Of a stretch of DNA of 64,000 nucleotides, positions 20,716-39,368 are shown piece by piece. Position 1 is the stretch's first letter. Each line of letters starts with the position of its first letter. Below the pieces are notes generated by a model, which worked only from the letters and a program-made list of their open reading frames with translations, was not told the origin of the DNA and ran no database searches. Position numbers and translations under genes: made by a program. The stretch is from Anaerostipes butyraticus (lineage in GTDB: Bacteria; Bacillota; Clostridia; Lachnospirales; Lachnospiraceae), in contig NZ_BLYI01000006.1 in assembly GCF_016586355.1 (NCBI RefSeq), forward strand, positions 186,001 to 250,000, written 5' to 3'.

Positions 20716-20742
20716 TTTGATCCAAGAGAATAGACGCATAAT

Positions 20743-20781
20743 AAAAAGGATGTATCACAAAAGAAGGTACGTCCTTTTTTT
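20743..20781 (+). terminator. Terminator between recN and spoIVB
   Basis: AAAAAGGATGTATC pairs with GGTACGTCCTTTTTTT (two G-T pairs) around a 9-base loop and ends in seven Ts. It lies just upstream of the spoIVB ribosome site, so any spoIVB promoter must fire through it or lie inside it. Confidence 0.85.
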
Positions 20782-20794
20782 AGGAGGTAAATTT

Positions 20795-22012
20795 ATGAGG
20801 AAAATCTATTATCGAAGGATTTTGTTTGTGCTTCTGCTGTTGAATCTTCTGGCATTTGCCTCGCTGTATGTCAAGTACTGCAGAGATCAGCTGCCTTCTT
20901 CGATCCATATCGAACAGGGAGAAGAAACCTGTTTTCAATATGATGTGCCGGTTACAGCGACCATCAATCACCAGACCATAAAGCTGGATCAGCCTTTTGT
21001 ATTTAAGGAAGACTCTACGGGACAGTATGAAATGGACGCCAGTCTTTTTGGAAAGATTCCGTTAAAAAAGATAAAGGTAAGTGTTGTAAAGAGTCAGGAA
21101 GTCATTCCCAGCGGCAAAGTTGTCGGAATTTATGTGGAAACCGACGGACTTCTCGTGCTGGACACCGATACCTTTACAGGAATTGACGGGGCAAATCACA
21201 CTCCCAGCAGTCAGAAACTGTATCAGGGTGATTATATTTTAGCCATTAACGGTAAATCCATACCTTCTAAGGCTGATTTCATGAAAGCGGTCAACCAAAG
21301 CAGCGGGGAAGAAGTAACGTTGAAAGTAAAACGAAATGAAAAGGAAATTTCCATTAAAGTAAAACCGGTAATGTCAGCTACAGACCATCAATATAAGATT
21401 GGAGCCTGGGTCAGAGACAATACACAGGGAATCGGTACACTGACTTATACAAGTGGTGAAAATTTCGGGGGATTAGGCCATGGCATTTGTGATATGGATA
21501 CAGGGGATTTAATGAAAATCAAAGGCGGTTATCTGATGACTGCCAACGTGGACACGATCGCAAAAGGAAAATCAGGTTCGCCAGGGGAAATTGTTGGCAG
21601 TATCTATTATAAGGAAGAAAATTTAATAGGATCCATTGATAAGAACACAGAAGTCGGCATATACGGAAGCTGTAATCCATCCAGTCAGAAAAAATATAAA
21701 ATCGGCTACCGGCAGGACATCAAAGAAGGGAAAGCATACATTATTTCAGACATCAGCGGAGAGTCAAAGCAGTATGAAATCAAAATCCGAAAAGTCAGCC
21801 AGGACAGTACCAACACAACGAAAGGAATGGAAATCGAGATTACGGATAAAGAACTTCTGAAGTTAACCAATGGCATCGTCCAGGGCATGTCGGGAACGCC
21901 CATCGTTCAAAACGGAAGATTCATAGGCGCCATCACCCATGTCTTCGTCAGTGACCCTTCCAGGGGTTATGGAATTCTGGCAGAAACGATGCTTTATGAA
22001 ATGGAAAAATAA
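20795..22012 (+). CDS. spoIVB: SpoIVB peptidase
   Basis: A 405-residue forespore serine peptidase that crosses to the intermembrane space and triggers pro-sigma-K processing. It has an N-terminal membrane anchor (ILFVLLLLNLLAFASLYV), a PDZ domain (GDYILAINGKSIPSKADF) and the S55 peptidase domain with GGLGHGICD (catalytic His) and GMSGTPIVQNGRFIGAITHV (nucleophile Ser). The ATG at 20795 follows TAGGAGG. spo0A normally comes next in clostridia, but here it lies about 33 kb away. Confidence 0.96.
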   Translation: MRKIYYRRILFVLLLLNLLAFASLYVKYCRDQLPSSIHIEQGEETCFQYDVPVTATINHQTIKLDQPFVFKEDSTGQYEMDASLFGKIPLKKIKVSVVKSQEVIPSGKVVGIYVETDGLLVLDTDTFTGIDGANHTPSSQKLYQGDYILAINGKSIPSKADFMKAVNQSSGEEVTLKVKRNEKEISIKVKPVMSATDHQYKIGAWVRDNTQGIGTLTYTSGENFGGLGHGICDMDTGDLMKIKGGYLMTANVDTIAKGKSGSPGEIVGSIYYKEENLIGSIDKNTEVGIYGSCNPSSQKKYKIGYRQDIKEGKAYIISDISGESKQYEIKIRKVSQDSTNTTKGMEIEITDKELLKLTNGIVQGMSGTPIVQNGRFIGAITHVFVSDPSRGYGILAETMLYEMEK

Positions 22013-22067
22013 AGAGAACAATCTACCTGCAAATAAGAAATATTCATAGGTAGATTGTTCTTTTTTT
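22013..22067 (+). terminator. Strong terminator after spoIVB
   Basis: A perfect 14-base stem, AGAACAATCTACCT / AGGTAGATTGTTCT (22015-22028, 22048-22061), followed by seven Ts. In an inverted state of the neighbouring segment it would also face incoming leftward transcription. Confidence 0.93.
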
Positions 22068-22086
22068 CATACTTTTTCTGATGATA

Positions 22087-22112
22087 TAAGAATAGTCCGA
22101 AAGTATTACACT
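22087..22112 (+). repeat. Left inverted repeat of candidate invertible segment
   Basis: A 26-base sequence that begins TAAGAATA and ends GTATTACACT with 8 bases between. It matches the reverse complement of 24219-24244 at 22 of 26 positions: the first 8 and last 10 bases are identical and the differences fall only in the middle. Two outer arms with a variable centre is the usual shape of a tyrosine-recombinase crossover site. Confidence 0.7.
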
Positions 22113-22255
22113 ATTAGATTTCATAAAAACACTCCCCTGTAAATATAGCTTTTTAACGATCTGACGGCTTATTTTGACGGTAAATGAAAGGTCTAATCCC
22201 CCAGCTATGCTGGGGAGAATGGAGTAAGCAGGAGCGTGTAAGATATTAATAAAAA

Positions 22256-22316
22256 GCCTCCTATGCTAAAATGAGAATGGTGTCGCAAGCCAAACTCAAA
22301 AATTAGTATAGGAGGC
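22256..22316 (+). promoter_or_regulatory. tnpA leader hairpin hiding the ribosome site
   Basis: GCCTCCTATGCTAA (22256-22269) pairs with TTAGTATAGGAGGC (22303-22316) with one G-T pair. The 3' arm contains the AGGAGG ribosome site of tnpA, so the leader RNA should block translation, as known for IS200. Confidence 0.8.
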
Positions 22317-22324
22317 GGTCCAAA

Positions 22325-22753
22325 ATGGACAATAAGAGTTTATCACACGTACGGTGGAAATGCCAATACCATATAGTTTTTATTCCGAAATACAGGAAGA
22401 AAGTACTGTATGGAAAGTTGAAAGCAGATGTAAGAGATATAATTTCTACATTGTGCAGATATAAAGACGTAGAGATTATAGATGGCGCAGTATGTGAAGA
22501 TCATATACATTTAAGCGTAGCTATTCCGCCCAAGTATAGTATTTCAAAATTTATGGGGTACTTAAAAGGAAAGAGTACGCTAATGATATATGATAGACAT
22601 CCAGAATTGCAGAGCAAATGGGATAAAGCATTCTGGGCCAGAGGATATTACGTTTCAACAATTGGTAATATCACAGAAGATGCAATAAAGAAGTATATAA
22701 GAGAGCAGGCGGAAGAATCAAGGAAAGAAGATTCAAGTAGTACCGCTTTATAA
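22325..22753 (+). CDS. tnpA: IS200/IS605 family transposase TnpA
   Basis: A 142-residue Y1 HUH single-strand transposase. The HUH metal site is in CEDHIHLSVAIPP, and the catalytic tyrosine lies in the C-terminal helix region (ITEDAIKKYIREQ), preceded by KAFWARGYYVSTIG. Length and motifs match complete IS200-type enzymes, so the element may be active. Its ribosome site is buried in the leader hairpin. The last 6 bases overlap the recombinase frame on the opposite strand. Confidence 0.95.
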   Translation: MDNKSLSHVRWKCQYHIVFIPKYRKKVLYGKLKADVRDIISTLCRYKDVEIIDGAVCEDHIHLSVAIPPKYSISKFMGYLKGKSTLMIYDRHPELQSKWDKAFWARGYYVSTIGNITEDAIKKYIREQAEESRKEDSSSTAL

Positions 22754-23995
22754 GCGGACCAGTAACAACGCTTGCGATACCCGCCCTTTTGGGCGAGCAT
22801 GTAACCGGCCCTTATGAGGGCCAACCCAAACCACCACTTGAAGTGGTGGTTGTGACTTAGAAGCGGATGCCAGCCTCTCTATTTGTTCCCGTTTAGAATC
22901 CATTGACGGATGGACATATCTCTGAAGAGTGGTACTTACATTGGCATGTCCCAGAATTTCACTGAGCGCTTTTACATCAAAACCGTTCTCCACACATCTG
23001 GTAGCAAACGTATGCCGAAGGCAGTGAAACGTATAATCCCCCAGCCCTGCGTCCAGTAAAATCTGTTTATATTTTCTTAAATATATTCGCGGTTCCATGA
23101 AATGCTTTGTTCCGGTCAGAAAATATGCTTCCTTTTCCTTTCGGATCGGTTTTAAATGCTCCGTCAAAAAATCTGGCAGTGGGATCATACGGATGGAAGT
23201 ATCCGTCTTTGGTCGATCTATGATCACTTTTGTTTTTCGCCTGGAGTTTGAATTCAATTCAGGTATTCGGATGATCGTTTTTGTAACCTGCAGATTTCGT
23301 TCTTCAAAATTGATATCCTGCCACTGCAGGGCACAGATTTCTCCAATCCGCAGCCCGCTGTACAGCGCCAGAAGAATTCCTGCTGATACAGAATCACTGG
23401 CTGCAAATACAATTTCCTCCAGCTTATGTTGTTCCCGTCTGGACAGAACCTGGACTCTCTTTGAATGCAGAGATGGATAGAAAATATCTCCACTGTCAGC
23501 ACAGGGATATTTTTTACTGCGGGCAAATTTAAGCCCCATCAGTAAAATAGAGCGGATATCCGCTACAGTTTTTGGTGACAATCCTCCTCTGTGATCCATG
23601 CGGCCGCAGCGCAGCTTTTCTTTTAAATATGCATCAATACGCTCTGTTGTCAGAGTCATCATACGGCAGCTGCCTAACTCGGGTTTCAGATGTCTTTCAT
23701 ACAGGCACTTATATGTCGTGTAAGTAGATTCTTTCAGGGAATCCTTCCGGGTTTCCAGCCACTCCTGCATTACTTCATCCAATGTAATCTTCAAATAATT
23801 TCTTTGAAAATTTCGTGTCATGGTAGAAGTTTGAAGTTCTGCCAGAAGAGTATTCTTCTTATTTTTTGCTTCCTGATATGTTTTCCCATAAAGATAGCGG
23901 TAGCATGCTTTTCCTTCCGGGGTGTAATCGAAAATAATTCTCGCTTCCCATCTTCCGTCTTTTCTCTTGTAAATGTTTTCTCCTCGTCTTGCCAT
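22748..23995 (-). CDS. Tyrosine recombinase/integrase with IS-derived C-terminal tail
   Basis: A 415-residue phage/Tn916-type integrase with an N-terminal arm-binding domain (MARRGENIYKRKDGRWEARI), a SAM-like core-binding domain and an intact catalytic domain: Arg in YSGLRIGEICALQW, HCLRHTFATRC (H-x-x-R), ILGHANVSTTLQRYVH (nucleophile Tyr about residue 360). After RLASAS the frame runs into the right end of the IS200 element, so the last 35 or so residues are IS-encoded. The catalytic residues all precede the junction, so activity may survive. It has a GGAGGTAAAC ribosome site. Rather than a transposon integrase, it may act on the two flanking inverted sites. Confidence 0.92.
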   Translation of the reverse strand: MARRGENIYKRKDGRWEARIIFDYTPEGKACYRYLYGKTYQEAKNKKNTLLAELQTSTMTRNFQRNYLKITLDEVMQEWLETRKDSLKESTYTTYKCLYERHLKPELGSCRMMTLTTERIDAYLKEKLRCGRMDHRGGLSPKTVADIRSILLMGLKFARSKKYPCADSGDIFYPSLHSKRVQVLSRREQHKLEEIVFAASDSVSAGILLALYSGLRIGEICALQWQDINFEERNLQVTKTIIRIPELNSNSRRKTKVIIDRPKTDTSIRMIPLPDFLTEHLKPIRKEKEAYFLTGTKHFMEPRIYLRKYKQILLDAGLGDYTFHCLRHTFATRCVENGFDVKALSEILGHANVSTTLQRYVHPSMDSKREQIERLASASKSQPPLQVVVWVGPHKGRLHARPKGRVSQALLLVRL

Positions 23996-24145
23996 TGTTT
24001 ACCTCCTTTTTCTCTGCTGATATACTCGGTTTCAAGCGATTCTTCTGACCAGAATTTTGACTGCAAATCAAAAGAAAAAATAAAAAAATCAACCGCATTT
24101 CTTAAATTTTTTAAAAATTTTTTTGTAACAAAATTGTAAAATACG

Positions 24146-24173
24146 TTGACAAATCGCCTGATTTGTTTATAAT
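24146..24173 (+). promoter_or_regulatory. EPS operon promoter with internal palindrome
   Basis: A consensus TTGACA (24146-24151), a 16-base spacer and consensus TATAAT (24168-24173) face the EPS cluster. ACAAATC (24149-24155) and GATTTGT (24160-24166) form a perfect inverted repeat between the two boxes, a probable repressor site. AT-rich tracts lie upstream at 24097-24140. The promoter is inside the candidate invertible segment. Confidence 0.85.
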
Positions 24174-24185
24174 GTTTAGCAGAAT

Positions 24186-24228
24186 GTATTACATTTTACA
24201 GTTTTTTGTCAGACGCAAAGTGTAATAC
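24186..24228 (+). repeat. Short inverted repeat in EPS leader
   Basis: GTATTACATTTT (24186-24197) and AAAGTGTAATAC (24217-24228) are inverted copies with one mismatch, separated by 19 bases. The right copy is part of the 24219-24244 site. In RNA it could fold into a hairpin in the EPS leader; in DNA the left copy may be a decayed recombinase half-site. Confidence 0.55.
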
Positions 24229-24244
24229 TCTAAGAATATTCTTA
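24219..24244 (-). repeat. Right inverted repeat of candidate invertible segment
   Basis: Read on the minus strand it begins TAAGAATA and ends GTATTACACT, matching 22087-22112 at 22 of 26 bases. Its outer part, TAAGAATATTCTTA (24231-24244), is itself a perfect palindrome. It lies between the EPS promoter and the first EPS gene, so recombination with 22087-22112 would reverse the promoter. Confidence 0.7.
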
Positions 24245-24327
24245 CCCAAATCATACAAGATGATAAGGGATTCGATAAGAGAAATTTGTAAAAAAATGGG
24301 GAGTATAAAGAAAAGGGTGAAAGCGAA

Positions 24328-25752
24328 GTGGAAATGAACCATTCACAGATGCAAAATTTGATTCTGTACATATGGGATGTCATAGGAATTACCGCAGGGT
24401 ATTTTATGATGACCTACATACGTTTCTATTCAAGTGGGCATACAGACTGGATCGGTGATAACAGGGTGTATTATCGCTGGATTTTCGCAGTCTTTATGCT
24501 GACACTGGTCTATCTGATATTTTATCCCAACAAAGACTTTTTTAAGCGCAAATTTAAAGAGGAATTGATCCATAATCTTAAAACCAACGGGATGACAGGG
24601 GTTTTTATGGCAACAGTGGCATATTTGATCAAGGATGCCGATGATTATTCCAGGTTCATCTATTTGGGAACGATTGTCTTTAGTTTATGTTGGATGCAGA
24701 TTGTACACAGTATTTATAGAAGATATGTACTGGATAACCGTCAGAAAGTGCGGACGACACGCAAGATTCTGATTCTTTGCAGAAAGGATCGGGCAGAAGA
24801 GATTGTATTAAACATTATAAAGGAAAAAACATACGATCTCTGGGTCGAGGGGATTATTGTTATAGATGAGGATATGGTAGGACAGACGATTCACGGCGTG
24901 CCGGTTGTCGCCAACTGTCGTTCCATGTATTTGTATGCCGCAAGGACTGTTGTGGATGAAGTATTTATTCAGTCCAACAGTTTTGAGGAATATATGATGC
25001 AGGAAGTGATTTCCAAATTTGAAGAAATGGGAATCAAAGTGAACTTAAGCATTGATCTTCTGAATTTAAGCATGGAGAAGCAGAGACGTCTGGGAAAAGT
25101 TGGAAGCTATTATACGATTGCTTTTACAGACAAAGAAGTTCCGCTTCGTATGCTGTTTGGCAAAAGACTGCTGGACATTGCAGGAGGAATTATCGGAGTC
25201 ATTCTGACAGGATTTCTGACGGTTATTCTTGGACCTCTGATTAAACTGGAATCTCCAGGACCGGTCTTCTTTTCGCAAAAACGAGTAGGAAGGAACGGAA
25301 GAATTTTTAAGATTTATAAATTCCGTTCCATGTACACAGATGCAGAAGAACGGAAAAAAGAATTAATGGCTCAGAATGAGATGAATGGGCTGATGTTCAA
25401 GATAAAGGATGACCCTAGAATCACGAAAATCGGAAAATTTATCAGAAAAACAAGTCTGGATGAATTTCCTCAGTTTTGGAATGTGCTCAAAGGTGATATG
25501 AGTCTGGTTGGAACAAGGCCGCCGACAGTGGATGAATTCCAGCAGTATGATCTGCATCATAAGAAACGGCTTGGCATGACGCCGGGACTTACCGGAGTAT
25601 GGCAGGTCAGCGGCCGCAGTGACATTACAGATTTTGAAGAAGTCGTCAATATGGATGTTGAATACATAGAAAACTGGAGCCTGAAACGGGATATTGGAAT
25701 CCTGTTTAAAACCGTTCAGGTTGTATTAAGCAGCGAAAGCGGTGCGAGATAG
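24328..25752 (+). CDS. Polyprenyl-phosphate sugar-1-phosphate transferase (EPS priming enzyme)
   Basis: A 474-residue initiating transferase that loads the first sugar phosphate onto undecaprenyl phosphate. About four N-terminal membrane helices, a Rossmann-like CoA-binding-type middle domain (KILILCRKDRAEEIV) and a membrane-anchored bacterial sugar transferase domain with KIYKFRSMYTDAEER, TSLDEFPQFWNVLKGDMS, GTRPPTVDEF and GLTGVWQVSGRSD. The start is GTG 24328 or ATG 24334, both served by AAGGGTGA. It is the first gene of the EPS cluster, 155 bases beyond its promoter. The sugar is not predictable; galactose or glucose is typical. Confidence 0.93.
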   Translation: MEMNHSQMQNLILYIWDVIGITAGYFMMTYIRFYSSGHTDWIGDNRVYYRWIFAVFMLTLVYLIFYPNKDFFKRKFKEELIHNLKTNGMTGVFMATVAYLIKDADDYSRFIYLGTIVFSLCWMQIVHSIYRRYVLDNRQKVRTTRKILILCRKDRAEEIVLNIIKEKTYDLWVEGIIVIDEDMVGQTIHGVPVVANCRSMYLYAARTVVDEVFIQSNSFEEYMMQEVISKFEEMGIKVNLSIDLLNLSMEKQRRLGKVGSYYTIAFTDKEVPLRMLFGKRLLDIAGGIIGVILTGFLTVILGPLIKLESPGPVFFSQKRVGRNGRIFKIYKFRSMYTDAEERKKELMAQNEMNGLMFKIKDDPRITKIGKFIRKTSLDEFPQFWNVLKGDMSLVGTRPPTVDEFQQYDLHHKKRLGMTPGLTGVWQVSGRSDITDFEEVVNMDVEYIENWSLKRDIGILFKTVQVVLSSESGAR

Positions 25753-25906
25753 CTTTATGAATAAAGGTGAGAATCTAGGGGACTTGGTCTGAACCTTTTT
25801 ACTGTGTACATATATGGTACAGAGCAGCAAAAACTTCGGGACAGGTGTTCCGAGGAGGTTGAGAATGGTTTGTGATGAAAGATAAGTGGGTTTAGGAGAA
25901 TGAATT

Positions 25907-27163
25907 ATGAGAGAGTTTAAAGATTTGAGAATCGCAGTAGCGGGAACAGGCTATGTCGGTCTGTCGATTGCAGTACTTTTGTCTATGCATCATGATGTTT
26001 GCGCAGTTGATATTGTGCCTGAAAAGGTGGATATGATAAATTGTCGGATTTCCCCAATTGAAGATGAATATATAAAGAAATATTTTGCAAAAAAGGAGCT
26101 TCGTCTGAATGCAACGCTTGATGCTGAGACGGCATATCGTGATGCAGACATTGTTGTGATTGCGGCTCCAACAAATTATGATTCACGGACACAGCGTTTT
26201 GATACATCAGCAGTCGAATCAGTCATCAGACTTGTGACGCAGTATAATCCGGAAGCTGTCATGGTTATTAAATCTACGATTCCGGTCGGATATACAAAGT
26301 CTGTGCGTGAGAAGACCGGCAACTGCAATATTATTTTTAGTCCGGAGTTTTTGAGAGAATCAAAAGCGTTGTATGATAATTTGTATCCGAGTCGTATTAT
26401 CGTAGGTGCAGATATGGAAGATAAGCGTCAGGTGGAAGCTGCGAATATTTTTGCAAGGCTGCTTCAGGAAGGTGCCGTCAAGAAAGACATCGACACTTTA
26501 TTCATGGGATTAACAGAAGCGGAAGCGGTGAAACTGTTTGCAAATACGTACCTGGCACTGAGAGTCGCCTATTTCAATGAGCTTGATACGTATGCAGAAA
26601 GCAAAGGATTGAATACACAGCAGATTATTGAAGGTGTTTGCCTTGATCCTCGCATTGGCAATCATTACAACAATCCAAGTTTTGGGTATGGAGGCTATTG
26701 CCTTCCAAAAGATACCAAACAGCTTCTTGCAAATTATTCAGATGTCCCGGAAAAGCTGATCGAGGCCATTGTTGAGAGCAACCGGACAAGAAAGGATTTT
26801 ATTGCAGACAGAGTATTGAAACTTGCCGGATACTACGATTATTACAGTAGCGGTGAATACAATGCAGACAAAGAAAAAGAATGTGTGATTGGTGTATATC
26901 GGCTCACAATGAAATCAAACAGCGACAATTTCCGTCAGAGTAGTATTCAGGGCGTGATGAAAAGAGTAAAAGCCAAGGGGGCCCGGGTAGTTATTTATGA
27001 GCCGACGATTGAGAATGGCAGTACATTTTTTGGCAGTAGGGTTGTGAATGATCTCGAAGCATTCAAGAAAATGAGTCAGGCAATTATTGCCAACAGGTAT
27101 GATGCCTGCCTGGATGACGTTCGGAGCAAAGTATATACGCGGGACATTTTTCAACGAGATTAA
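25907..27163 (+). CDS. UDP-glucose 6-dehydrogenase family protein
   Basis: A 418-residue nucleotide-sugar dehydrogenase that oxidises a UDP-sugar twice with NAD+ to the uronic acid. The N-terminal Rossmann motif is [21 protein letters not shown] replaces the usual TP-x-D region, [21 protein letters not shown] is the central helix and [14 protein letters not shown] carries the catalytic Cys. It probably supplies UDP-glucuronate, making the EPS acidic. The 154-base gap before it holds two short hairpins and a GAGGAGG-type sequence but no clear gene or promoter. Confidence 0.93.
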
Positions 27164-27181
27164 CGGCAGGAGGATAAAAAC

Positions 27182-27649
27182 ATGGCAGATCAGCTGAAAA
27201 TATGTTTTGCTGCATCATCAGGTGGTCATTATGAACAGCTGATGATGTTGAAACCATTGATGAAAAAGTACTCAGGATTTGTGCTGACGGAAAAGACGTT
27301 ATACAATGCTGAAATAGAAGGCGAGAAAACATATTATCTGAGTCAGGTAAACCGCAGAGAAAAATCTTTTCTTCCAAGAATGATTATAAACTGTATAAAG
27401 TCTTTAGGAATATATCTGAAAGAAAGACCGGATGTTGTCATTTGTACCGGCGTACTGGCAACGATACCAATGTGCTTAATCGCGAAAGTGTTTGGAAAAA
27501 AACTGATTTATATTGAATCTTTTGCAAAGGTCACTTCACCGACGGAGACTGGAAAGCTTCTGTATAAGTATTCCGACAGATTTTATGTGCAGTGGGAACA
27601 GATGAAAGAGATATATCCAGATGCTGTATATCTTGGCGGGATATATTAA
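27182..27649 (+). CDS. PssD/Cps14F-like glycosyltransferase subunit (Alg14-like)
   Basis: A 155-residue membrane-anchor subunit of a two-part UDP-sugar glycosyltransferase. The N-terminal AASSGGHYEQLMML and the central DVVICTGVLATIPM with KLIYIESFAKVTSPT match the Alg14/PssD family. It pairs with the next gene, which carries the Alg13-like catalytic half. In streptococcal capsules this pair adds galactose or glucose to lipid-linked glucose or glucuronate. Confidence 0.92.
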   Translation: MADQLKICFAASSGGHYEQLMMLKPLMKKYSGFVLTEKTLYNAEIEGEKTYYLSQVNRREKSFLPRMIINCIKSLGIYLKERPDVVICTGVLATIPMCLIAKVFGKKLIYIESFAKVTSPTETGKLLYKYSDRFYVQWEQMKEIYPDAVYLGGIY

Positions 27650-27671
27650 TATTGAAGGAGAACAGATATAG

Positions 27672-28148
27672 ATGATTTTTATAACGTTAGGGTCTCAGAA
27701 GTTTCAGTTTAACAGGCTGCTTCGTGCAGTAGACCGGCTTACTGCATCCGGCGACATCGATGATGAAATTTTTGCACAGATTGGATACAGTGACTACAGA
27801 CCTGAGAATTACAGATTTAAAGAGTTCTTGGACCGCCAGGAATTTTCTGATATGACAGACCGGGCGGGTATTGTAATTACACACGGTGGTACGGGGGCAA
27901 TCATAGGAGCACTGAAAAAGAAAAAGAAAGTTATAGCAGTACCGCGCAGAGCGGAAAATAAAGAACATGTAGATGATCATCAGCGGCAGCTTGTAAAAGA
28001 GTTTGGAGATTTGAATCTTATCTATGAATGTGATGACTGTAATCAACTGGGAGAGGCACTGAAAAAAGTCCAAAATATGCAGTTTGACTCATATCAAAGC
28101 AATACGGAAGCATACATTGCCAGCATTGAAGATTTTTTGAAGCAATGA
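27672..28148 (+). CDS. PssE/Cps14G-like glycosyltransferase subunit (Alg13-like)
   Basis: A 158-residue protein with the Alg13/PssE start MIFITLGSQKFQFNRLL and the nucleotide-binding GIVITHGGTGAIIGALKK followed by VIAVPRRAENKEHVDDHQRQ. It is the donor-binding half that works with the preceding Alg14-like membrane subunit. Only 22 bases separate the two. Confidence 0.93.
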   Translation: MIFITLGSQKFQFNRLLRAVDRLTASGDIDDEIFAQIGYSDYRPENYRFKEFLDRQEFSDMTDRAGIVITHGGTGAIIGALKKKKKVIAVPRRAENKEHVDDHQRQLVKEFGDLNLIYECDDCNQLGEALKKVQNMQFDSYQSNTEAYIASIEDFLKQ

Positions 28149-28161
28149 AACAGGTGATTTC

Positions 28162-28944
28162 ATGAATAAAGTCGAAAAATATATAGATTATGTAACAACC
28201 AAAATAAGACAGTTTCTGAAACAGAGAACATTTGTCAGCAAAAAGCAAAATGTAAGTTTAAAATATATGCTGGAGAAAAACAGGTCTTCCCGTATACTGA
28301 TCGTAGTCTTTAGCGCATGCACTCGAAAAGGAGTCAAAGCCAGATATAACTATGTCCGCACGCTGAAAGATGTGAAAGAAAATAAACTGTTTATTTTGGA
28401 TGATTTTAGTGCTGATCACAGAGGAGCATATTATCTTGGACAAAATGGCGGTAATGAAATTGAGTTGGCATGTCAGGAGTTGATCATGCAGAAAGCAGAA
28501 GAATTGAGAGCAAAAAAGATTATTTTATGCGGAAGTTCCAAAGGTGGATGGGCAGCCTTGAATCTGATGACAGATATCAAAGATGCGGATGCCATAGTAG
28601 GTGCGCCGCAGTATTATCTTGCAAATTATCTTCTGGCTCCGCCTCTGAAGATATGTCGGGAATTTATCATGCCGGATGTCACAGAACAGAAAATTAAAGG
28701 ATTAAATGAGTATTTAAGAAATAAACTGAAGAAGAAAGCAGGAGACAAACATAAGATTTATCTTCATTATTCGGATTCAGAACATACATATAATGAACAT
28801 GTTCGGTTTCTGATCGAGGATTTGGAAAGTTTTGGATATGATGTAGCGTTTGACTGCAGGCATTATACAGAACATTGGGATGTAAGCAGATATTTCCCTG
28901 ACTATTTGCTCGATTCGTTGACCGGATGCTGTAAAGGAGAATAA
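28162..28944 (+). CDS. Alpha/beta hydrolase-like protein (Asp2-type) in EPS cluster
   Basis: A 260-residue protein with a likely serine nucleophile in ILCGSSKGGWAALNLM and a candidate C-terminal histidine in YTEHWDVSRYFP; an acid could be in HYSDSEHTYNEH. The arrangement resembles the Asp2-like alpha/beta hydrolases of accessory secretion and polysaccharide loci, some of which move acetyl groups. No signal peptide is evident, so it probably acts in the cytoplasm on a glycan or lipid-linked intermediate. The exact reaction is unknown; it may deacylate or O-acetylate the repeat unit. Confidence 0.7.
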   Translation: MNKVEKYIDYVTTKIRQFLKQRTFVSKKQNVSLKYMLEKNRSSRILIVVFSACTRKGVKARYNYVRTLKDVKENKLFILDDFSADHRGAYYLGQNGGNEIELACQELIMQKAEELRAKKIILCGSSKGGWAALNLMTDIKDADAIVGAPQYYLANYLLAPPLKICREFIMPDVTEQKIKGLNEYLRNKLKKKAGDKHKIYLHYSDSEHTYNEHVRFLIEDLESFGYDVAFDCRHYTEHWDVSRYFPDYLLDSLTGCCKGE

Positions 28945-28948
28945 AATA

Positions 28949-29797
28949 ATGAAAAGCAAAGTATCTGTATATTATGCGAAAGTTCCTAATATGGGAGATT
29001 TGCTGAACAGAGATATTATAGAAAAATGTTTTGGATATGATGTTGAACGAAGAACATATCTTACAGGAAAGGTCAGTGGTATTGGAAGCGGCCTGGGGAA
29101 TTATACATATGAAGAGGGAAAATGGAAAAATATGCTGAAGTTTATTTCCGGGATCTTTTTCCCGGAAGCATATATCTGGGGAACGGGTTTTGTACGGTAC
29201 AAAGATGCTGATACAAAATTTTACAAGAAGAATATGCATTTTTGTGCAGTTCGAGGAGAATTGAGCAGGAAACGGATAGAAAAAATGCTTGGACATGACC
29301 TTGATATTCCGACAGGAGATGCGGGGATTCTATCCTCTTTTCTGTTGGATCAGATGCCGGAAAAAAAATATAAAGTTGGAATAATTGCTCATTATAAAGA
29401 ACAAGATGAACCGGCTTTTCAGACATTATGTGATAAGTTCCAGGGTTCAAAGTTTATTGATGTTCGTAATGAGCCGGAAGAAGTCACCCAGCAGATTGCA
29501 GAATGTGAGGTTATTCTTTCCAGCAGCCTGCATGGACTTATTATCGCAGACAGTTTAAGAATTCCTAACAGACATATTGTAGTTACTGATAATTTACTCG
29601 GCGATGGATTTAAATTTGATGACTATTATTCTGCATATGGTCTTGAGCACAGCTTTACAGATCTTAATATTGAAAAGATTGATTCACTGGAAGAAGTATG
29701 TGATCAGTACCGTATTACAGATGAGATGGCAGAAACGAAGAAAAAGTTGATGCTGAAAAGTTTTCCGTTTCCGCCCCTGTCTGGCAGTGTTCAGTAA
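28949..29797 (+). CDS. Polysaccharide pyruvyl transferase family protein
   Basis: A 282-residue member of the pyruvyl transferase family, which adds ketal-linked pyruvate from PEP to sugars. Signs are the N-terminal YYAKVPNMGDLLNRDII, the central IWGTGFVRYKD and CAVRGELSRKRIE, GDAGILSS, and the C-terminal ECEVILSSSLHGLIIADSL with its SLHG motif. With the uronate pathway it suggests a strongly anionic polymer. Confidence 0.88.
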   Translation: MKSKVSVYYAKVPNMGDLLNRDIIEKCFGYDVERRTYLTGKVSGIGSGLGNYTYEEGKWKNMLKFISGIFFPEAYIWGTGFVRYKDADTKFYKKNMHFCAVRGELSRKRIEKMLGHDLDIPTGDAGILSSFLLDQMPEKKYKVGIIAHYKEQDEPAFQTLCDKFQGSKFIDVRNEPEEVTQQIAECEVILSSSLHGLIIADSLRIPNRHIVVTDNLLGDGFKFDDYYSAYGLEHSFTDLNIEKIDSLEEVCDQYRITDEMAETKKKLMLKSFPFPPLSGSVQ

Positions 29798-29843
29798 CAG
29801 GATGTTAAGATGACTTGAAACAAAAGCAGGAAGGGTTTTACAG

Positions 29844-31088
29844 ATGAAATATTTAGTTTTACTTAATCGAAGATTTCCATTCAGATACGGGGAAGCGTTC
29901 CTGGAAAATGAAATTGATGAGATATCAGAGAAGTTTGACCGCATTATTATTTACCCAAGTGATGCTCGTATCGGTGATAAGCAAAACAGAAAGATATCAT
30001 CGCAAAATGTGACGGTAAGAACAATTGAAAAAAGTTCACTGAAGTTAAGAAAAATTAAATATTTATGTAGTGCGCTGAGATATATCAGTAAATCCAGACA
30101 GCCGAAGCTGCTGCATAAGCTGTTGGACGGATATTTTTTGGCTGCGGCATATGACCAGATGGGTAAAATCAGAAAGGATCTGGGAAATTTTCCTGTCCGT
30201 TCAGGAGATACAGTTTATTTTTACAGCTACTGGCTTTATATCAATGCCAAAGTGGCATGTCTTCTGAAGGAATATTATGAGAAAAAGGGAATCCATACAG
30301 TTGTGTTTTCCAGGGCACATCGATTTGATATATATGAGGAGAAAAGAAGATTTGCTTATCTGCCTGAAAGAATAAATCTTCTTGGACATCTGGATCATGT
30401 TTTTGCATGCTCCGACAATGGGTCTGATTATCTGAAGAAGCATTATCCGAAATCTAACAGAAAGATATCCACATCATACCTTGGTACATACGATCACGGT
30501 CTGGGAACTGTGGAGTCCAGAAAGAAGTTCCACATCATATCTTGTTCCAGAATGAGTAGTGTCAAAAGGGTAGATCTTATTATAGAAGCATTAAAGCTGT
30601 TGAAGAATGAGAATCTTTCCCTGGTATGGACACATCTTGGCGGCGGAGAGTTGTATGATGTGATTACAGAGAAGGCAAAAGAGCTGGACTGGATGGAAGT
30701 ACACCTTGATGGTGCTGTTCCCAACAAAGAAGTATATGATCATTACAGAGACTGTCCGGAACATCTCTTCGTAAATGTAAGTTCTTCTGAGGGATTACCC
30801 GTATCTATTATGGAGGCCATTAGTTTTGGTATTCCGGTAATTGCTACAGATGTCGGAGGAACAGCAGAAATTGTTCTCGACGGCGTGAATGGGAGACTGC
30901 TGGATGCAGACTTCCAGCCGGAAAAACTGGCAGAGCAGATAAAGTATTTTGTTTCATTAACTGATGAGGAATATCGTAAATATCGAATGAATGCGAGGGG
31001 AACATGGGAGAAATATTTCCAGGCTCCGGTGAACTATAAAAACTTTGTTCATGATATCCATACATTATATAAGGAAGGAAAAGAATAG
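29844..31088 (+). CDS. Glycosyltransferase, GT4 type
   Basis: A 414-residue GT-B retaining glycosyltransferase. The C-terminal donor-binding domain shows ISCSRMSSVKRVDLIIEAL, WTHLGGGELYD and the E-x7-E motif region SSSEGLPVSIMEAISFGIP. The N-terminal acceptor domain begins LLNRRFPFRYGEAFLENEI. Donor and acceptor sugars are not predictable. The preceding 46 bases carry a CAGGAAGGG ribosome site. Confidence 0.9.
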   Translation: MKYLVLLNRRFPFRYGEAFLENEIDEISEKFDRIIIYPSDARIGDKQNRKISSQNVTVRTIEKSSLKLRKIKYLCSALRYISKSRQPKLLHKLLDGYFLAAAYDQMGKIRKDLGNFPVRSGDTVYFYSYWLYINAKVACLLKEYYEKKGIHTVVFSRAHRFDIYEEKRRFAYLPERINLLGHLDHVFACSDNGSDYLKKHYPKSNRKISTSYLGTYDHGLGTVESRKKFHIISCSRMSSVKRVDLIIEALKLLKNENLSLVWTHLGGGELYDVITEKAKELDWMEVHLDGAVPNKEVYDHYRDCPEHLFVNVSSSEGLPVSIMEAISFGIPVIATDVGGTAEIVLDGVNGRLLDADFQPEKLAEQIKYFVSLTDEEYRKYRMNARGTWEKYFQAPVNYKNFVHDIHTLYKEGKE

Positions 31089-32183
31089 ATGCAGGGGTGT
31101 AGTACAAAAAGAATTAAAATCTCGGTTATTGTGCCTGTATATAAAGTGGAAAAGTATATAGACAGATGCGTGAAATCTCTTCTCCAGCAGAGCCTGAAGG
31201 AAATACAGATTATACTTGTTGATGACGGATCACCGGACCGTTGTGGAGACATCTGTGATCGGTATGCAGAGAAGGATCAGCGTATCAAAGTGGTTCATAA
31301 GGAAAACGCAGGGCTTGGTTTCGCACGCAATACGGGAATGGAATATGCAGACGGAGAATATATAGCATTTGTTGATTCTGATGATTACATCAGTGCAGAC
31401 ATGTTGGAACGATTGTATCGCTTTGCTTCCGAGGAGAATTTGGATGCAGTATTCTGCGGTTTTACTGTAGTAACCAGAGACAATAAACATATGGATCGCC
31501 AGGAAGTGTGTAAGATTACTTACTTTAATAACAGGAAAGAACGGGAGAAATATCTGTTGGGAATGATTGGTGCGGAACCGGAGTATCCGAAAGATGCCCG
31601 TTTTACTATGTCTGTATGGAGAGGGATTTATAAAAAAGAAGTAATCGATGCCGGTCAATGTATGTTTCCATCCGAACGGAAAGTAGTTTCAGAGGATATT
31701 ATTTTTCATATTCAGTTTCTGCATTATGCAGAACGAATAGCCGTTCTGCCTGAATGTTACTATTACTACTGTGAAAATCAAAGTTCTCTGACACATACCT
31801 ACCGGGCAGATCGATTTGAAAAAGTTTTAAATCTGATTGCACTGATTGACCAGATGATGAAAGAGTATGGATTTCAGGATCCTGAAAATATGAGCAAAGA
31901 CAGGCTTCTTCTTGCAAGATCAAGAAGCGCCATCCGGCAGATCTGTTATCATCAGTATATGCTTGGAAAGAAAAAAGCAGATAAGGAAATCTATAAGATA
32001 ATGACCTCACCGCAGCTTCGCCGCTGTATTGGTGAATATAGGTGTGCAAAACTTCCGTTTGTACAGAAATGCTTTTTCTATGCGGTCAAATGGAAGAGTG
32101 TGAAAGGATCTAAACTGTTAATCAGGATAAATGATATAAGAAAAAGAAAGGGACGATTAGTTAGCAGGCATTTGAGGAAATAG
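31089..32183 (+). CDS. Glycosyltransferase, GT2 type
   Basis: A 364-residue GT-A family 2 enzyme. The start ISVIVPVYKVEKYIDRCV, IILVDDGSPDRCGDIC (nucleotide site), GLGFARNTGME and the metal-binding FVDSDDYIS are classical. The C-terminal 120 residues are helical and basic, probably membrane-associated. It starts immediately after the preceding gene's stop. Confidence 0.93.
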   Translation: MQGCSTKRIKISVIVPVYKVEKYIDRCVKSLLQQSLKEIQIILVDDGSPDRCGDICDRYAEKDQRIKVVHKENAGLGFARNTGMEYADGEYIAFVDSDDYISADMLERLYRFASEENLDAVFCGFTVVTRDNKHMDRQEVCKITYFNNRKEREKYLLGMIGAEPEYPKDARFTMSVWRGIYKKEVIDAGQCMFPSERKVVSEDIIFHIQFLHYAERIAVLPECYYYYCENQSSLTHTYRADRFEKVLNLIALIDQMMKEYGFQDPENMSKDRLLLARSRSAIRQICYHQYMLGKKKADKEIYKIMTSPQLRRCIGEYRCAKLPFVQKCFFYAVKWKSVKGSKLLIRINDIRKRKGRLVSRHLRK

Positions 32184-32185
32184 TT

Positions 32186-33433
32186 ATGAAAATATCAGGA
32201 AAACAAATGTTATATTTTGAATTGATATGTATTTTTACAGTTCCATTCTGTACTTCTGTTTTTGGGCTTCCCAGGCCTCTTCTGTACATAATGGATCTTA
32301 TTAACATTTTCCTGCTTTTGCTGTGTCTGGGATATTTCGGACTGCGTAGGCAGTCGGTCATACAGATATTAATAATTGCCGTATTAATTACAGTAGTTGG
32401 TCTGGCTGGATATATGTCCTGGGGAACATCTTTTGCTCAGTATATCTGGGGAATGAGGACGACCTTAAGATTTTTTATTTTTCTGATTAACTGTTATTAC
32501 ATATTTGATATGGAAGATATTTGTAAAATTTGGAATGTTTTGTATAAATTATTATTTGTTAATGTTATATTTGCTACATATCAGTACTTTGGAAGGGGAA
32601 TCTCAGGAGATATGCTGGGCGGCACTTTTGGAACATTAATGGGAGCCAGTGGATATCTGGTTGCTTTGCTTTCACTGGTCTTAACTTATGTTACTTCATT
32701 ATATGTATATAAAAAGATTAAAATATGGAAAGTATCATTGACATATGCAGGAGTTTTGTATATTTCTATTCTTGCCGAACTCAAAGTCATCTATCTGCTA
32801 CTGGTTTTAATTATTGTGGTGTCTGCCATTATTTCAAAACCAGATCCAAGAACCATTCTGATTGTGGCAGCAGCAGTGATACTGCTGATTGTGGCACTGA
32901 GAGCTCTTGCAGTTCTAAATCCAGTCTCTTTCGGGTATATGTCAAGCTGGGAAGACCTGATCTTTTATCTAAATAACAGTTATACATCAGAAGGAGGATT
33001 CAGTCGGATGGACAGCATCCCGAGGATTAATGAATTATTTTTCAAAGGGTCTTTTTCGAAGGAAATGTTTGGATATGGTCTTGGTCAGTGTGACAATTCG
33101 AATATTGAGGTGTTGAATTCTATATTTTACGAGAGATATGGGCATTACAATTATAGATTATTCTTCTATGCAATGACCTATCTGGAGATGGGTATTGCAG
33201 GACTGTTTATATACTTAATGTTCTATATAGGAATACTAATAAATACAGTGAGATGTAGTTTCGCAGAATATAAAGAGTATAAGCTTATGTCAATATTAAA
33301 TATTTTGATCATTTTTATTATGTTTGTTTATAATTATACGTTAAGATCAGATCCTGGATATATCTGGATGTTGGCATGTGCGGTTCCTTTGGTCTGTAGC
33401 AAGGTGAAACGAACAGAGACGACAACGAAGTAA
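32186..33433 (+). CDS. O-antigen/EPS polymerase-like membrane protein (Wzy candidate)
   Basis: A 415-residue protein with ten or more transmembrane helices and a large external loop (about residues 245-310, with SEGGFSRMDSIPRINELFF and GYGLGQCDNSNIE). Topology, size and place between glycosyltransferases and flippase fit a Wzy polymerase, whose primary sequence is poorly conserved. The assignment rests on topology and context rather than a signature. Confidence 0.75.
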   Translation: MKISGKQMLYFELICIFTVPFCTSVFGLPRPLLYIMDLINIFLLLLCLGYFGLRRQSVIQILIIAVLITVVGLAGYMSWGTSFAQYIWGMRTTLRFFIFLINCYYIFDMEDICKIWNVLYKLLFVNVIFATYQYFGRGISGDMLGGTFGTLMGASGYLVALLSLVLTYVTSLYVYKKIKIWKVSLTYAGVLYISILAELKVIYLLLVLIIVVSAIISKPDPRTILIVAAAVILLIVALRALAVLNPVSFGYMSSWEDLIFYLNNSYTSEGGFSRMDSIPRINELFFKGSFSKEMFGYGLGQCDNSNIEVLNSIFYERYGHYNYRLFFYAMTYLEMGIAGLFIYLMFYIGILINTVRCSFAEYKEYKLMSILNILIIFIMFVYNYTLRSDPGYIWMLACAVPLVCSKVKRTETTTK

Positions 33434-33450
33434 ATGGAGGTGAGTGGTAA

Positions 33451-34005
33451 ATGCAGGATTATAAAGGATGGATTACGATTGAAAAGCAGAAATACATCGA
33501 TCAGATGGGTGGGAAGAAACAGTTTTTATTAAGAAGAATAAAATTGCATCCGGACTATTATTCTTGGAAATATATCAAGAGCCTCAGAAAAGCTGGTTAT
33601 TATTACGACAGAAGAAAGAAGAATATATTTTATATGATGCGCTATCTTTTGGCATGCAGAAGAAAAAACAGACTTGGGAGAAAACTGGGAATTGAAATGG
33701 GAGAGAAATGTGCAGATTTAGGGTTGATGATTTATCATACGCAGGGCATTGTTGTTAATGGGAATGCGAGACTTGGAAAAAACTGCAAATTACATGGAAA
33801 CAACACAATTGGGAACAGCGGAAAAGATAATGCAGTTCCGAGGATTGGAGATAACGTTGATATAGGAGCCGGTGCAAAAGTAATCGGCGATGTACAGATT
33901 GAAGAAAATGTGACAATTGGGGCAGGAGCAGTTGTTGTAGATTCGTGTCTGGAAAAAGGAGCCATTCTTGTCGGTGTTCCTGCGAGACCGCTGAAAAGAA
34001 AGTAA
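33451..34005 (+). CDS. Serine acetyltransferase-like hexapeptide transferase
   Basis: A 184-residue left-handed beta-helix acyltransferase. The C-terminal repeats NARLGKNCKLHGNNTIGN, IGDNVDIGAGAKVIGDVQI and NVTIGAGAVVVDS are hexapeptide turns, and YHTQGIVVN carries the catalytic histidine region of CysE-type enzymes. In an EPS locus it most likely acetylates a sugar rather than serine. Confidence 0.87.
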   Translation: MQDYKGWITIEKQKYIDQMGGKKQFLLRRIKLHPDYYSWKYIKSLRKAGYYYDRRKKNIFYMMRYLLACRRKNRLGRKLGIEMGEKCADLGLMIYHTQGIVVNGNARLGKNCKLHGNNTIGNSGKDNAVPRIGDNVDIGAGAKVIGDVQIEENVTIGAGAVVVDSCLEKGAILVGVPARPLKRK

Positions 34006-34038
34006 AAAACTGCAGGACTGTTGGGATGGGAGGACAAC

Positions 34039-34767
34039 ATGATACCGAAAAAGATTCATTATATATGGATAGGAAAAGGACCGAAAGGGAAAATAGCGGA
34101 AATCTGTATTAATTCCTGGAGACGCGTGATGCCGGATTATGAGATCATAGAGTGGAATGAAGATACATTAGATTTGCCAACGCTCTGTAAGAAGAACAGG
34201 TTTTTGAAAAAATGCTGTGAATTAAAGTTATGGGCATTTGTGTCGGATTATATTCGTTTGCATGTGTTGTATCAGGAAGGCGGCATTTATATGGATACAG
34301 ACGTAGAGGCAGTAAAGGTATTCGATGATTTTTTATCTGATTCTGTCTTTATGGGATATGAAGCAGGTGACTATATTGGAACGGCCGTGATCGGAGCAGA
34401 AAAAGGGAATAATCTGATGCAGAGGCTGCTGAGATTCTATGATGAGGAAATCTGGAATGTCCGCTTTATTAATAATCCGATTATTTTTAAATATGTAATA
34501 GATCGGGAGCCAGACTATTTTCAGCATTGCAAAATATATCCTATCAATTATTTTTCACCATATAATGCTCAAAAATCCTATGATTGTATCGTCGATACAG
34601 AAGAAACATATGCCATTCACTGGTATACACAAAACTGGAATATGAGCAGAAAAGGGTATGTTTTTATGCATACGAAGCATGTCAAAAATCCTTTGAAAAA
34701 AGGTGCTTTGATTATTAGAAAAAATATAGGATACACAAAAAAACAATGGAAGAAAAAATACTCGTGA
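34039..34767 (+). CDS. Glycosyltransferase, GT32/capsule type with DXD motif
   Basis: A 242-residue enzyme with the GT32-like start IPKKIHYIWIGKGPKG, the region SDYIRLHVLYQEGGIYMDTD containing the DXD metal motif, and AIHWYTQNWNM near the end. I use the ATG at 34039, preceded by GGGAGGAC; an upstream in-frame TTG is less likely. Family members transfer hexoses or galactose in capsule synthesis. Confidence 0.88.
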   Translation: MIPKKIHYIWIGKGPKGKIAEICINSWRRVMPDYEIIEWNEDTLDLPTLCKKNRFLKKCCELKLWAFVSDYIRLHVLYQEGGIYMDTDVEAVKVFDDFLSDSVFMGYEAGDYIGTAVIGAEKGNNLMQRLLRFYDEEIWNVRFINNPIIFKYVIDREPDYFQHCKIYPINYFSPYNAQKSYDCIVDTEETYAIHWYTQNWNMSRKGYVFMHTKHVKNPLKKGALIIRKNIGYTKKQWKKKYS

Positions 34768-34792
34768 ATGACAGATGAGGTGTGTGAACGGA

Positions 34793-36214
34793 ATGGGAAA
34801 ATATAAATATCTGATAAAGAATATAGGGCTTCTTACATTAAGCAGTTTTGGAACAAAACTTCTGACATTCTTTTTGGTTCCGCTTTATACCAGTGTCTTA
34901 AGTACATCAGAATATGGTACGTTTGATCTAACCTATACAACAGTGAGTTTGCTGATTCCGATTCTAACAATGAGTATTGTGGAATCAACATTACGTTTTT
35001 CACTGGACAAAAATGCGGATCAGCAGGAAATATTCAGTATATCGTTAAGGATCGTTATACGAAGCAGCATTATTTTCATTGCATGTATTGTCCTAAATTA
35101 TTATTTGGAACTGTTTCCTTTTATCAATGATAATATTGTATTTTTTTGCATGTATTATATTGTCATGCTTTCTCAGCAGCTGCTTCAGGCATTCGCAAGA
35201 GGGATTGACCATGTTGCGGATATAGCAGTTTCAGGTGTTCTTAATTCTGCAGTGATGATCACACTGAATATCGTATTTTTATTATATTTTCGCCTGGGAC
35301 TGACAGGATATTTTCTGGCATATATTATCGGGTTGCTGACCACAAGCATCTATTTGAGTGTAAGAATAAAAATATGGAAGTATATACGGTTCTCCAAACT
35401 AAGAAAGTCAAAAGAGAAAGAAATGTTGTCTTACAGCAAACCACTGGTAGTAAACTCAATCAGCTGGTGGATTAATAATGCTTCTGACCGATATGTTGTA
35501 ACGTGGATTTGTGGTCTTGCTGCAAATGGTGTATATTCTGTCGGCTATAAGATTCCTTCTATCTTGTCTGTTTTTCAGACGATTTTTAATACCGCCTGGC
35601 AATTATCTACAGTTCGGGCATACGACAGGGAAGATGCCGATGGATTTTTTAAGAATATATATAGTCTTTATAATCTGGTGATGGTTTTTGGGTGTTCGTT
35701 AATGATTGTGTTGACTCGTCTGTTGGCACGGTTTTTATATGCAAAGGATTTCTTTGGGGCATGGCGCTATGTTCCGTTTTTAATGATGGCAGTTGTATTT
35801 GGAGCTTTGATCGGAGTTTTCAGTGGTGTTTTTCAGGCGGTCAAGGATTCGAAAAGTCAGGGAAAGATAACAGTTGTCGGTGCATTGATTAACTTGGTTC
35901 TGAACATCATTCTTACTTTGTGGATTGGTGCAATCGGAGCAGCGATTGCTACTGCCGTTGCATATTTTATCATGTGGCTTTTGAATTTGTATTATATTAG
36001 AAAATATATTGTTATTAAGATACGGCTGAAGCGTGACATTTTATCATATGTGCTGCTATTTCTTCAGACAGTATTAATGCTGTGGTTTGCAGATTCCATA
36101 CCGCTTTATTTGGTACAGCTTATAATATGTGGAATCATATTGTTGTTATATTCAGAAGAAGTCAAGACAATCTTACAGCGATTTGTGTTAATTATTACAG
36201 GAAAGCGCGAATAA
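34793..36214 (+). CDS. Oligosaccharide flippase (Wzx-type)
   Basis: A 473-residue MATE/MOP-superfamily flippase with 12-14 predicted helices. The N-terminal NIGLLTLSSFGTKLLTFFLV and PLYTSVLSTSEYGTFDLTYT are typical of polysaccharide exporters that flip undecaprenyl-linked repeat units. The ATG at 34793 has a GAGGTG ribosome site; an in-frame ATG at 34775 is possible. Confidence 0.9.
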   Translation: MGKYKYLIKNIGLLTLSSFGTKLLTFFLVPLYTSVLSTSEYGTFDLTYTTVSLLIPILTMSIVESTLRFSLDKNADQQEIFSISLRIVIRSSIIFIACIVLNYYLELFPFINDNIVFFCMYYIVMLSQQLLQAFARGIDHVADIAVSGVLNSAVMITLNIVFLLYFRLGLTGYFLAYIIGLLTTSIYLSVRIKIWKYIRFSKLRKSKEKEMLSYSKPLVVNSISWWINNASDRYVVTWICGLAANGVYSVGYKIPSILSVFQTIFNTAWQLSTVRAYDREDADGFFKNIYSLYNLVMVFGCSLMIVLTRLLARFLYAKDFFGAWRYVPFLMMAVVFGALIGVFSGVFQAVKDSKSQGKITVVGALINLVLNIILTLWIGAIGAAIATAVAYFIMWLLNLYYIRKYIVIKIRLKRDILSYVLLFLQTVLMLWFADSIPLYLVQLIICGIILLLYSEEVKTILQRFVLIITGKRE

Positions 36215-36304
36215 ATATTATTTACAATAGATAGTACATAAGTGGAGTTTGAGTAAAGATAGTATTGAATGGGGAGGCATTATGAGAGATGAGGAAAAAC
36301 TAAT

Positions 36305-36847
36305 ATGAACAGCTATCCGAAAGCACCGTTATTATTCAGGTTTATAATGCTCAGGATGTAGTTTATGATTTGTTGGAGAATATCAGAAATCAGACATTTA
36401 CAAATATTGAAGTCATTATGGTTAATGGTGGGTCAACAGATAACAGCGGAGAAATCTGCAAAGAGTTTGCAGAAAAAGACAGTAGATTTATTTACCTGTA
36501 TCAGGAAAACAGCGGTGTTTCTGATGCAAGAAATTATGGGGGTTCTATTGTCACAGGATATTTATTATATTGCGTTTCTGGATGTGGATGACAGAATGCC
36601 GCTGAATCGTTTTGAAATCATGATAAAGATCATGGAAGATGACAAAACAATTGACCTTGTGCTCAGTTGCTATGTTGTTAAAGTGAAAAACGGAAAGTTT
36701 CTTTATTCTTTATGGCAGTCTGAAGCAAGTGGAAAACAGTCTGAAGAAAAACTGATTATGGATTTTGCCAGATCAATGATCAGTTTTTATTATGGAGGTA
36801 TCTGGAATAAGTTGACCCGTTGTATTAGTGCGATTTGTGTTGATTAA
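36305..36847 (+). pseudogene. Decayed GT2 glycosyltransferase
   Basis: A broken family 2 glycosyltransferase spread over three frames. MNSYPK at 36305 leads, after a one-base loss near 36322, into STVIIQVYNAQDVVYDLLEN and VNGGSTDNSGEICK (frame of 36322). A second lesion near 36545 moves to YIAFLDVDDRMPLNRFE, which stays open to 36847. The donor motif is also eroded: VNGGS replaces the usual VDDGS. The C-terminus is short compared with the 300-plus residues of intact members. The gene is inactive unless these are sequence errors. Confidence 0.85.
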
Positions 36848-36992
36848 AAACATATAAAGGCCCATAGTATCTCCTGAAATAAAAAATTATTACCATATAA
36901 ATACTTGAAGGATAAAGAAAAATTATTCTTTTCAATTATTAAGAATAGAATATAAATAATTTTTGAAATGTGAAAATAACATATAATGAGGG

Positions 36993-38561: not shown

Positions 38562-38642
38562 TATCACAAGAAATATAGAAGCAGAATCAGCAGGAAGGGA
38601 GAAAAATAACAGAATAAAGGGTTAGAGAAGGAAGGGCATACT

Positions 38643-39356: not shown

Positions 39357-39368
39357 GGAGAAAGAGAC

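Follow-up and report, generated by a model that had tools for sequence, protein, structure and literature searches.

Surface polysaccharide shapes the encounters of gut Clostridia with phages, mucus and the immune system, yet most of what is understood about phase variation comes from Bacteroides and from pathogens. Among the closest described systems, Hin, which acts on the H segment of Salmonella, and Gin, Cin and Pin are serine recombinases, and the Hin segment carries an outward promoter. The fim switch of E. coli (FimB/FimE) and RecV of C. difficile use tyrosine recombinases to invert regulatory segments in front of surface genes, the recombinases sitting outside the small invertible segments. 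Gut invertons, among them those of the Bacteroides capsules, likewise include invertible promoters for surface polysaccharides, which are served by recombinases encoded close by or by a master invertase. The hin gene lies within the segment that it inverts, RecV acts on several loci, and Mpi is an example of a master invertase (PMC5903667). Inverton group 139 is linked to tyrosine-type invertase group 35 in Clostridia, and two examples of group 139 quoted there measure about 255 bp, which leaves no room for a recombinase gene (PMC11892184).

The locus that concerns us lies in the window, by which we mean the whole 64,000-nucleotide (64-kb) stretch of Anaerostipes butyraticus DNA that was analyzed. 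It carries a putative cassette built like Hin, with the recombinase inside its own inverting segment together with an outward promoter, but with a tyrosine recombinase and a 7-bp spacer in place of a serine enzyme; its presumed effect on an exopolysaccharide (EPS) cluster resembles that of fim or of the Bacteroides capsule switches. It differs from fim and RecV in that the recombinase is internal, and from the Bacteroides systems both in this respect and in having 7-bp spacers that are mostly private to each locus. With groups 139 and 35 it shares, by description, a clostridial host and a tyrosine recombinase group tied to related inverted repeats. The closest solved catalytic domain by sequence is that of Tn1549/Tn916-type integrases, which move elements, whereas here the sites stand in inverted orientation and the segment does not leave its locus. 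Among the matches listed in a search of open-licence titles and abstracts we found no description of an invertible promoter in Lachnospiraceae that encloses its own tyrosine recombinase, a weak absence, and the passages searched gave no size limit of PhaseFinder that would explain why such cassettes had been overlooked.

The order in the window is spoIVB, an IS200-type insertion, a tyrosine recombinase gene on the minus strand, the promoter and the EPS cluster. The features are as follows, L028 being the corresponding locus of a sister species.

20696-22012, spoIVB (PF05580)
22011..22066, plus strand, terminator-like hairpin after spoIVB, a 19-pair stem running into a U run
22094..22120, plus strand, left recombination site: AGTCCGAAAG, spacer TATTACA (22104-22110), CTATTAGATT
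22104..24227, no strand, invertible segment, 2124 bp including both spacers, reversed relative to L028
22186..22858, plus strand, IS200/IS605-type insertion at the 3' end of the recombinase gene (PF01797, NF033573), its ends fixed to a few bases against L028
22325-22753, IS200 transposase ORF (PF01797, NF033573)
22748..23995, minus strand, tyrosine recombinase, a 415-aa ORF (PF00589, PF14659), native over about 22883-23995 as aligned to L028
23996..24210, no strand, stretch from the recombinase start to the right site
24146..24173, plus strand, consensus promoter (TTGACA-16-TATAAT) reading out of the segment and, in this assembly, toward the EPS cluster
24211..24237, minus strand, right recombination site, inverted: ATTCTTAGAG, spacer TATTACA (24221-24227), CTTTGCGTCT
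24328-25752, sugar transferase, first gene of the EPS cluster (PF02397)
24328..41792, plus strand, exopolysaccharide cluster, the presumed target (Pfam/NCBIfam for the first gene, further ORFs named by eye)

The ORFs named by eye in the cluster include a UDP-sugar dehydrogenase, glycosyltransferases and Wzx-, CpsB-, Wzz-, BY-kinase- and LCP-like proteins. Inside the segment the ORF list and Pfam gave recognized ORFs for the recombinase and the IS200 transposase only, and no RNA family reached its gathering score over 21900-24700. A ribosome-site-like AGGGGAGTG and ATGAAATCTAATAGTGTAATAC.. run across the site both in the window (about 22104-22145, minus strand) and in L028 (about 6185-6225), and each flip would give a short ORF a different end.

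The preliminary description of this DNA had proposed a recombinase-driven switch and had named, as a check, a relative carrying the segment in the flipped orientation. Such a relative was found. A search of contigs for the recombinase returned nine loci, the best of which, L028 from Candidatus Anaerostipes avistercoris, encodes a recombinase that is 84% identical. The gene order is that of the window (spoIVB, recombinase, sugar transferase), with the recombinase on the plus strand and the consensus promoter conserved in the opposite direction, aimed at spoIVB; the flanks at the junctions are unchanged and the intervening segment is reversed. On the left, the two species are identical through ..GTCCGAAAGTATTACACT, after which the window continues into the 3' end of the recombinase gene and L028 into the promoter end; the right junction is the mirror image. 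This places the crossover within the shared AGTATTACACT. The inversion is the evidence that decides for the switch reading, which is supported with details corrected below. Identity between the window and L028 is about 80% over the recombinase and the EPS gene and 91% over spoIVB. Over the first 300 bp of the cassette at its promoter end (window 23930-24220) it reaches 98-100%, which argues for dense function there or for recent exchange. Both orientations at one locus are represented by one pair, between two species with one assembly each, L028 being a MAG. No second flipped pair was evident in genus searches around G434 (match in 3 of 41 genomes) or G431 (3 of 6), which gave the query itself, relatives 46-50% identical and two broken copies.

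We consider it highly probable that the 2.1 kb between the two TATTACA spacers form an inversion cassette, complete in itself, that switches EPS ON and OFF. In the mechanism that we propose, the internally coded tyrosine recombinase would bind two loxP-like sites in opposite orientation, and strand exchange in the identical spacer would turn the segment round. The strong promoter beside the recombinase start would then aim in one orientation at the EPS operon (the ON state, found in this assembly) and in the other at the spoIVB hairpin terminator (the OFF state, found in L028), and cells would thereby vary in exopolysaccharide. Comparison shows the segment both ways round in two sister species, with the break inside the shared core, and the same build elsewhere in the family. 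We infer that the recombinase of the cassette would perform the inversion, that flipping may be ongoing in this strain and that EPS expression would follow orientation.

Homologs were sought in 145 relatives (18 matching at E <= 1e-60) and in 397 family genomes (76 matching). Eighty-two loci with flanks were examined, namely the window, L028, L029, L059-L077 and L109-L168; of the 98 places listed in the family search, 25 were left out of the repeat examination. A score cut of at least 16 within 700 bp passed 52 of the 82 loci unaided. Adding by hand the window (whose left site lies beyond 700 bp owing to IS200), L028 (score 12), L066 (14.5) and L074 brought the set to 56, and dropping the doubtful L112 and L141 left 54 of 82 in which the recombinase lies inside its own inverted repeats, with the remaining 28 not so counted. 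A recombinase within the segment, at first presented as a distinctive form, is not peculiar to this strain, being how 54 of the 82 homologous loci are built. The best match between left and right flanks averaged 20.2 in inverted and 12.3 in direct orientation (82 loci, the window site being beyond reach). Inverted comparisons scored at least 16 at 52 of 82 loci and direct ones at 8 of 82, the latter count owing in part to near-palindromic sites, which also match in direct orientation. When the flanks were set to 450 bp, 50 of 82 loci surpassed the 99th percentile of a control of 984 mismatched flank pairs, and only one exceeded the maximum of this control, which was drawn from loci sharing the motif. 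On a protein tree of the 82, the repeat-flanked trait changes 16 times, as compared with a mean of 23.4 and a minimum of 17 in 300 sets of shuffled labels, and it therefore tracks descent only loosely.

The recombinase matches PF00589 (E 7e-27), and Pfam and NCBIfam gave tyrosine recombinase/integrase families only, with no serine recombinase domain at E <= 0.001. As had been claimed from the letters alone, all of the catalytic residues are in place: R216, K263, H324, R327, H350 and Y360, which we take to be the R-K-H-R-H-Y catalytic set, are present and are invariant in all 82 aligned homologs. IS200, described at the outset as a passenger inside the inverting segment, is missing from L028, and the genome holds one full-length copy and two partial matches at 67-68%; it is a late insertion into the recombinase tail, a passenger and not a design feature. 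It has replaced the final native residues of the recombinase with about 36 residues read from IS200, and the switch may be locked in this strain because of that altered tail. It is possible, although we think it unlikely, that a once-working switch has been locked by IS200 in the recombinase C-terminus, leaving EPS fixed in the ON state. The replaced tail, and the lack of the insertion in L028, speak for such a lock. On the other side, 19 native residues remain past the catalytic tyrosine, where the 55 other tails that were read have 14-42 and many natural homologs stop after 14-22, and other recombinases might act in trans, though the five other matches in the genome are only 26-35% identical over the matched part. 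IS200 is perhaps a brake on the cassette.

The effect of orientation on EPS depends in our proposal on the promoter, whose position and direction toward the EPS cluster had been noted at the outset and are borne out by a match to 12 of 12 consensus positions. The same plan is visible across the family. Over the 56 loci the median distance from site to recombinase start is 237.5 bp; on the other side, counted from the last homologous residue, it is 98.5 bp. The best promoter in the larger gap has an exact TTGACA in 29 of 53 cases outward and 1 of 53 inward; mean best scores are 10.8 outward, 9.1 inward and 8.9 in mononucleotide shuffles, and the outward promoter often stands 30-50 bp before the site. 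After a flip, the promoter of the window would meet the spoIVB hairpin (-25.1 kcal/mol, z -7.2), which is also strong on the minus strand (-23.4, z -6.1). Silencing of the EPS operon upon inversion is plausible on these grounds. In L028 there is no clear terminator between the recombinase and EPS (z -0.95), and the OFF state may leak because the recombinase points at EPS there.

Neighboring genes were taken from ORF calls of at least 80 aa at the 56 loci. At 22 of 56 a gene pointing away from the cassette is present on the recombinase 3' side alone, and at 6 of 56 on the promoter side alone; away-reading genes are found on both sides in 20 and on neither in 6, and in two one side is without a neighbor. 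These counts, and the want of a strong terminator between recombinase and EPS in L028, would fit a real inversion with the opposite main effect, in which the L028 orientation co-transcribes the recombinase with EPS and the promoter serves something else. We judge this improbable: the outward promoter is a good consensus across the family and faces a terminator-like hairpin once flipped, and a surplus of OFF orientations in assemblies would also be expected of costly surface structures.

Pfam was run on 65 away-reading neighbors, with the 25 most frequent of 107 families considered, and on selected ones. The neighbors take in genes for EPS, pili, sortase, secretion and large secreted proteins. 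Among the families were sugar transferases, epimerases, glycosyltransferases, CpsB, LytR-CpsA-Psr, TadZ, a SpaA/FctA pilus protein, a sortase, cohesin/dockerin and large repeat-bearing proteins. FtsK/SpoIIIE, PP2C and FHA neighbors suggest type VII secretion by context, as judged by eye; HTH proteins, a helicase, a restriction-like protein and TnpB-like proteins were also seen. Our impression is of an enrichment for surface genes. L074 and L075 have a polysaccharide gene set on either side of the cassette, each pointing away from it, as if it chose between them.

The family sites follow a loxP-like plan of a 10-bp half-site (consensus TTTCGTAGAG), a 7-bp spacer and an inverted half-site. Among spacer lengths of 5-9 bp, 7 bp gave the best fit, 2073.5 as compared with at most 1459.5 for 5, 6, 8 and 9. 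L074 does not follow the 10-7-10 model. The two spacers of a locus are identical in 55 of the 56 loci, and 50 different spacers occur among the 55; because loci were picked for repeats, equality within a locus is partly by construction, which is not true of the fixed length or the common half-site. The sites of the window and of L028 score 24.3 in the family model, which gives at least 40 in 33 of 56 loci, and one half of each window site is closer to the consensus than its other half. L075 has an inverted repeat of 166 bp.

Could such an arrangement instead be a small Tn916-like integrative element that was inserted once in each orientation? The closest solved structures by sequence are of an Int protein (6emy, 6emz and 6en0, presumably Tn1549 Int), as this would have it. 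Yet in 54 of 82 loci the gene stands between inverted sites, both orientations are found within one and the same pair of flanks, whose outer half-sites do not change, and no ORF for excision or transfer was seen between the cassette ends in the segment ORF list, by eye, or with Pfam. We regard an integrative element as very unlikely and inversion in place as the better account.

The site plan also changes how the repeats of the window are to be read. Two 26-base sequences in opposite orientation (22087-22112, plus; 24219-24244, minus) had been reported to agree at 22 of 26 positions, and coordinates and alignment uphold this; the match is real, but its register shifts to 22094-22120 and 24211-24237. 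The 8-base center in which breakpoints had been expected is a half-site and not the spacer, and the crossover falls instead in the identical AGTATTACACT core, which includes the 7-bp spacer TATTACA. The outer TAAGAATA was considered as part of the site and rejected, being mostly outside the core and, on the right side, not kept in L028.

The repeat alone is weak evidence, because inverted pairs of exact 11-mers at spacings of 200-2500 bp are plentiful, 76 overlapping ones occurring in 64 kb. The 18 bases treated as fixed in the preliminary description have two exact matches in the window, against 0.06 expected in shuffles with up to three mismatches, the pattern having been picked post hoc. 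In the 3.17 Mb of the genome the 11-mer AGTATTACACT is present at the two sites only, with one copy in each direction, and an exact search of the whole genome for this core found no other site for the same recombinase. At the level of sequence, what sets the pair above chance is the flipped ortholog, the genome-wide uniqueness of the 11-mer and the family of repeat-flanked homologs. A chance repeat near an unrelated recombinase, with the L028 order owed to some other rearrangement or to misassembly, can draw on the 76 inverted 11-bp pairs and on the 1.7% of 984 mismatched flank pairs that equal the window score (the window having had a longer left flank), but is scarcely credible given breakpoints in the repeat itself, an 11-mer unique to the sites and a family-wide plan with one spacer length.

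Of nine other genus members with a spoIVB match, six have spoIVB and spo0A adjacent and are without the cassette and EPS cluster together: spo0A begins within about 0.2 kb after spoIVB in G003, G004, G006, G008 and G009, and G002 is placed with them by a match cut at a contig end. About 4.4 kb separates the two genes in G005, they are on different contigs in G007 and G010, and a match to spoIVB was lacking in G001 at the threshold applied. The window has spo0A at 54956, and about 33 kb (22013-54955) of switch, EPS cluster and further genes splits the pair. Among the 11 genus genomes, none was seen with spoIVB joined to EPS genes without the cassette.

We lean, if only slightly, toward a broader proposal, that Lachnospiraceae have a standard autonomous phase-variation cartridge, a recombinase and an outward promoter between sites with shared half-sites and private 7-bp spacers, several of which in one genome would switch surface operons independently. 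Independence would follow because the half-sites are shared but the spacers are private to each locus, and a cassette with outward-reading genes to both sides of it, as in 20 of 56, may select between two programs. With recombinase, promoter and sites in one unit, such cassettes would be easily recognized in genomes and their presence would predict phase-variable surface operons in Lachnospiraceae; that private spacers insulate switches with common half-sites is a testable rule, and the cassettes may supply orthogonal inversion tools. G179 (L149, L152, L153 and L156) has four cassettes with near-equal half-sites and four different 7-bp spacers. A contig end lies less than 1.5 kb from the recombinase in 9 of 60 loci (L109, L114, L117, L123, L127, L131, L136, L137 and L159), a raw count, as expected if mixed orientations break assembly.

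Finally, TnpB/Cas12f1-like proteins of 439-455 aa adjoin the cassettes of L067, L069, L146, L151, L154, L155 and L168, and PF07282 was found in 7 of the 65 scanned neighbors; the neighbor in L142 is TnpB-like by N-terminal resemblance only. Aligned to Cas12f, whose catalytic positions we presume to be as commonly given, these neighbors have Val, Ala or Pro at the position of the RuvC Glu and Lys at that of the last Asp, and S/A-x-G stands, by eye, where the first Asp motif would be. In looking nuclease-dead they resemble TldR regulators, and if that is true could, as a further part of the cartridge proposal, join DNA inversion to RNA-guided regulation.
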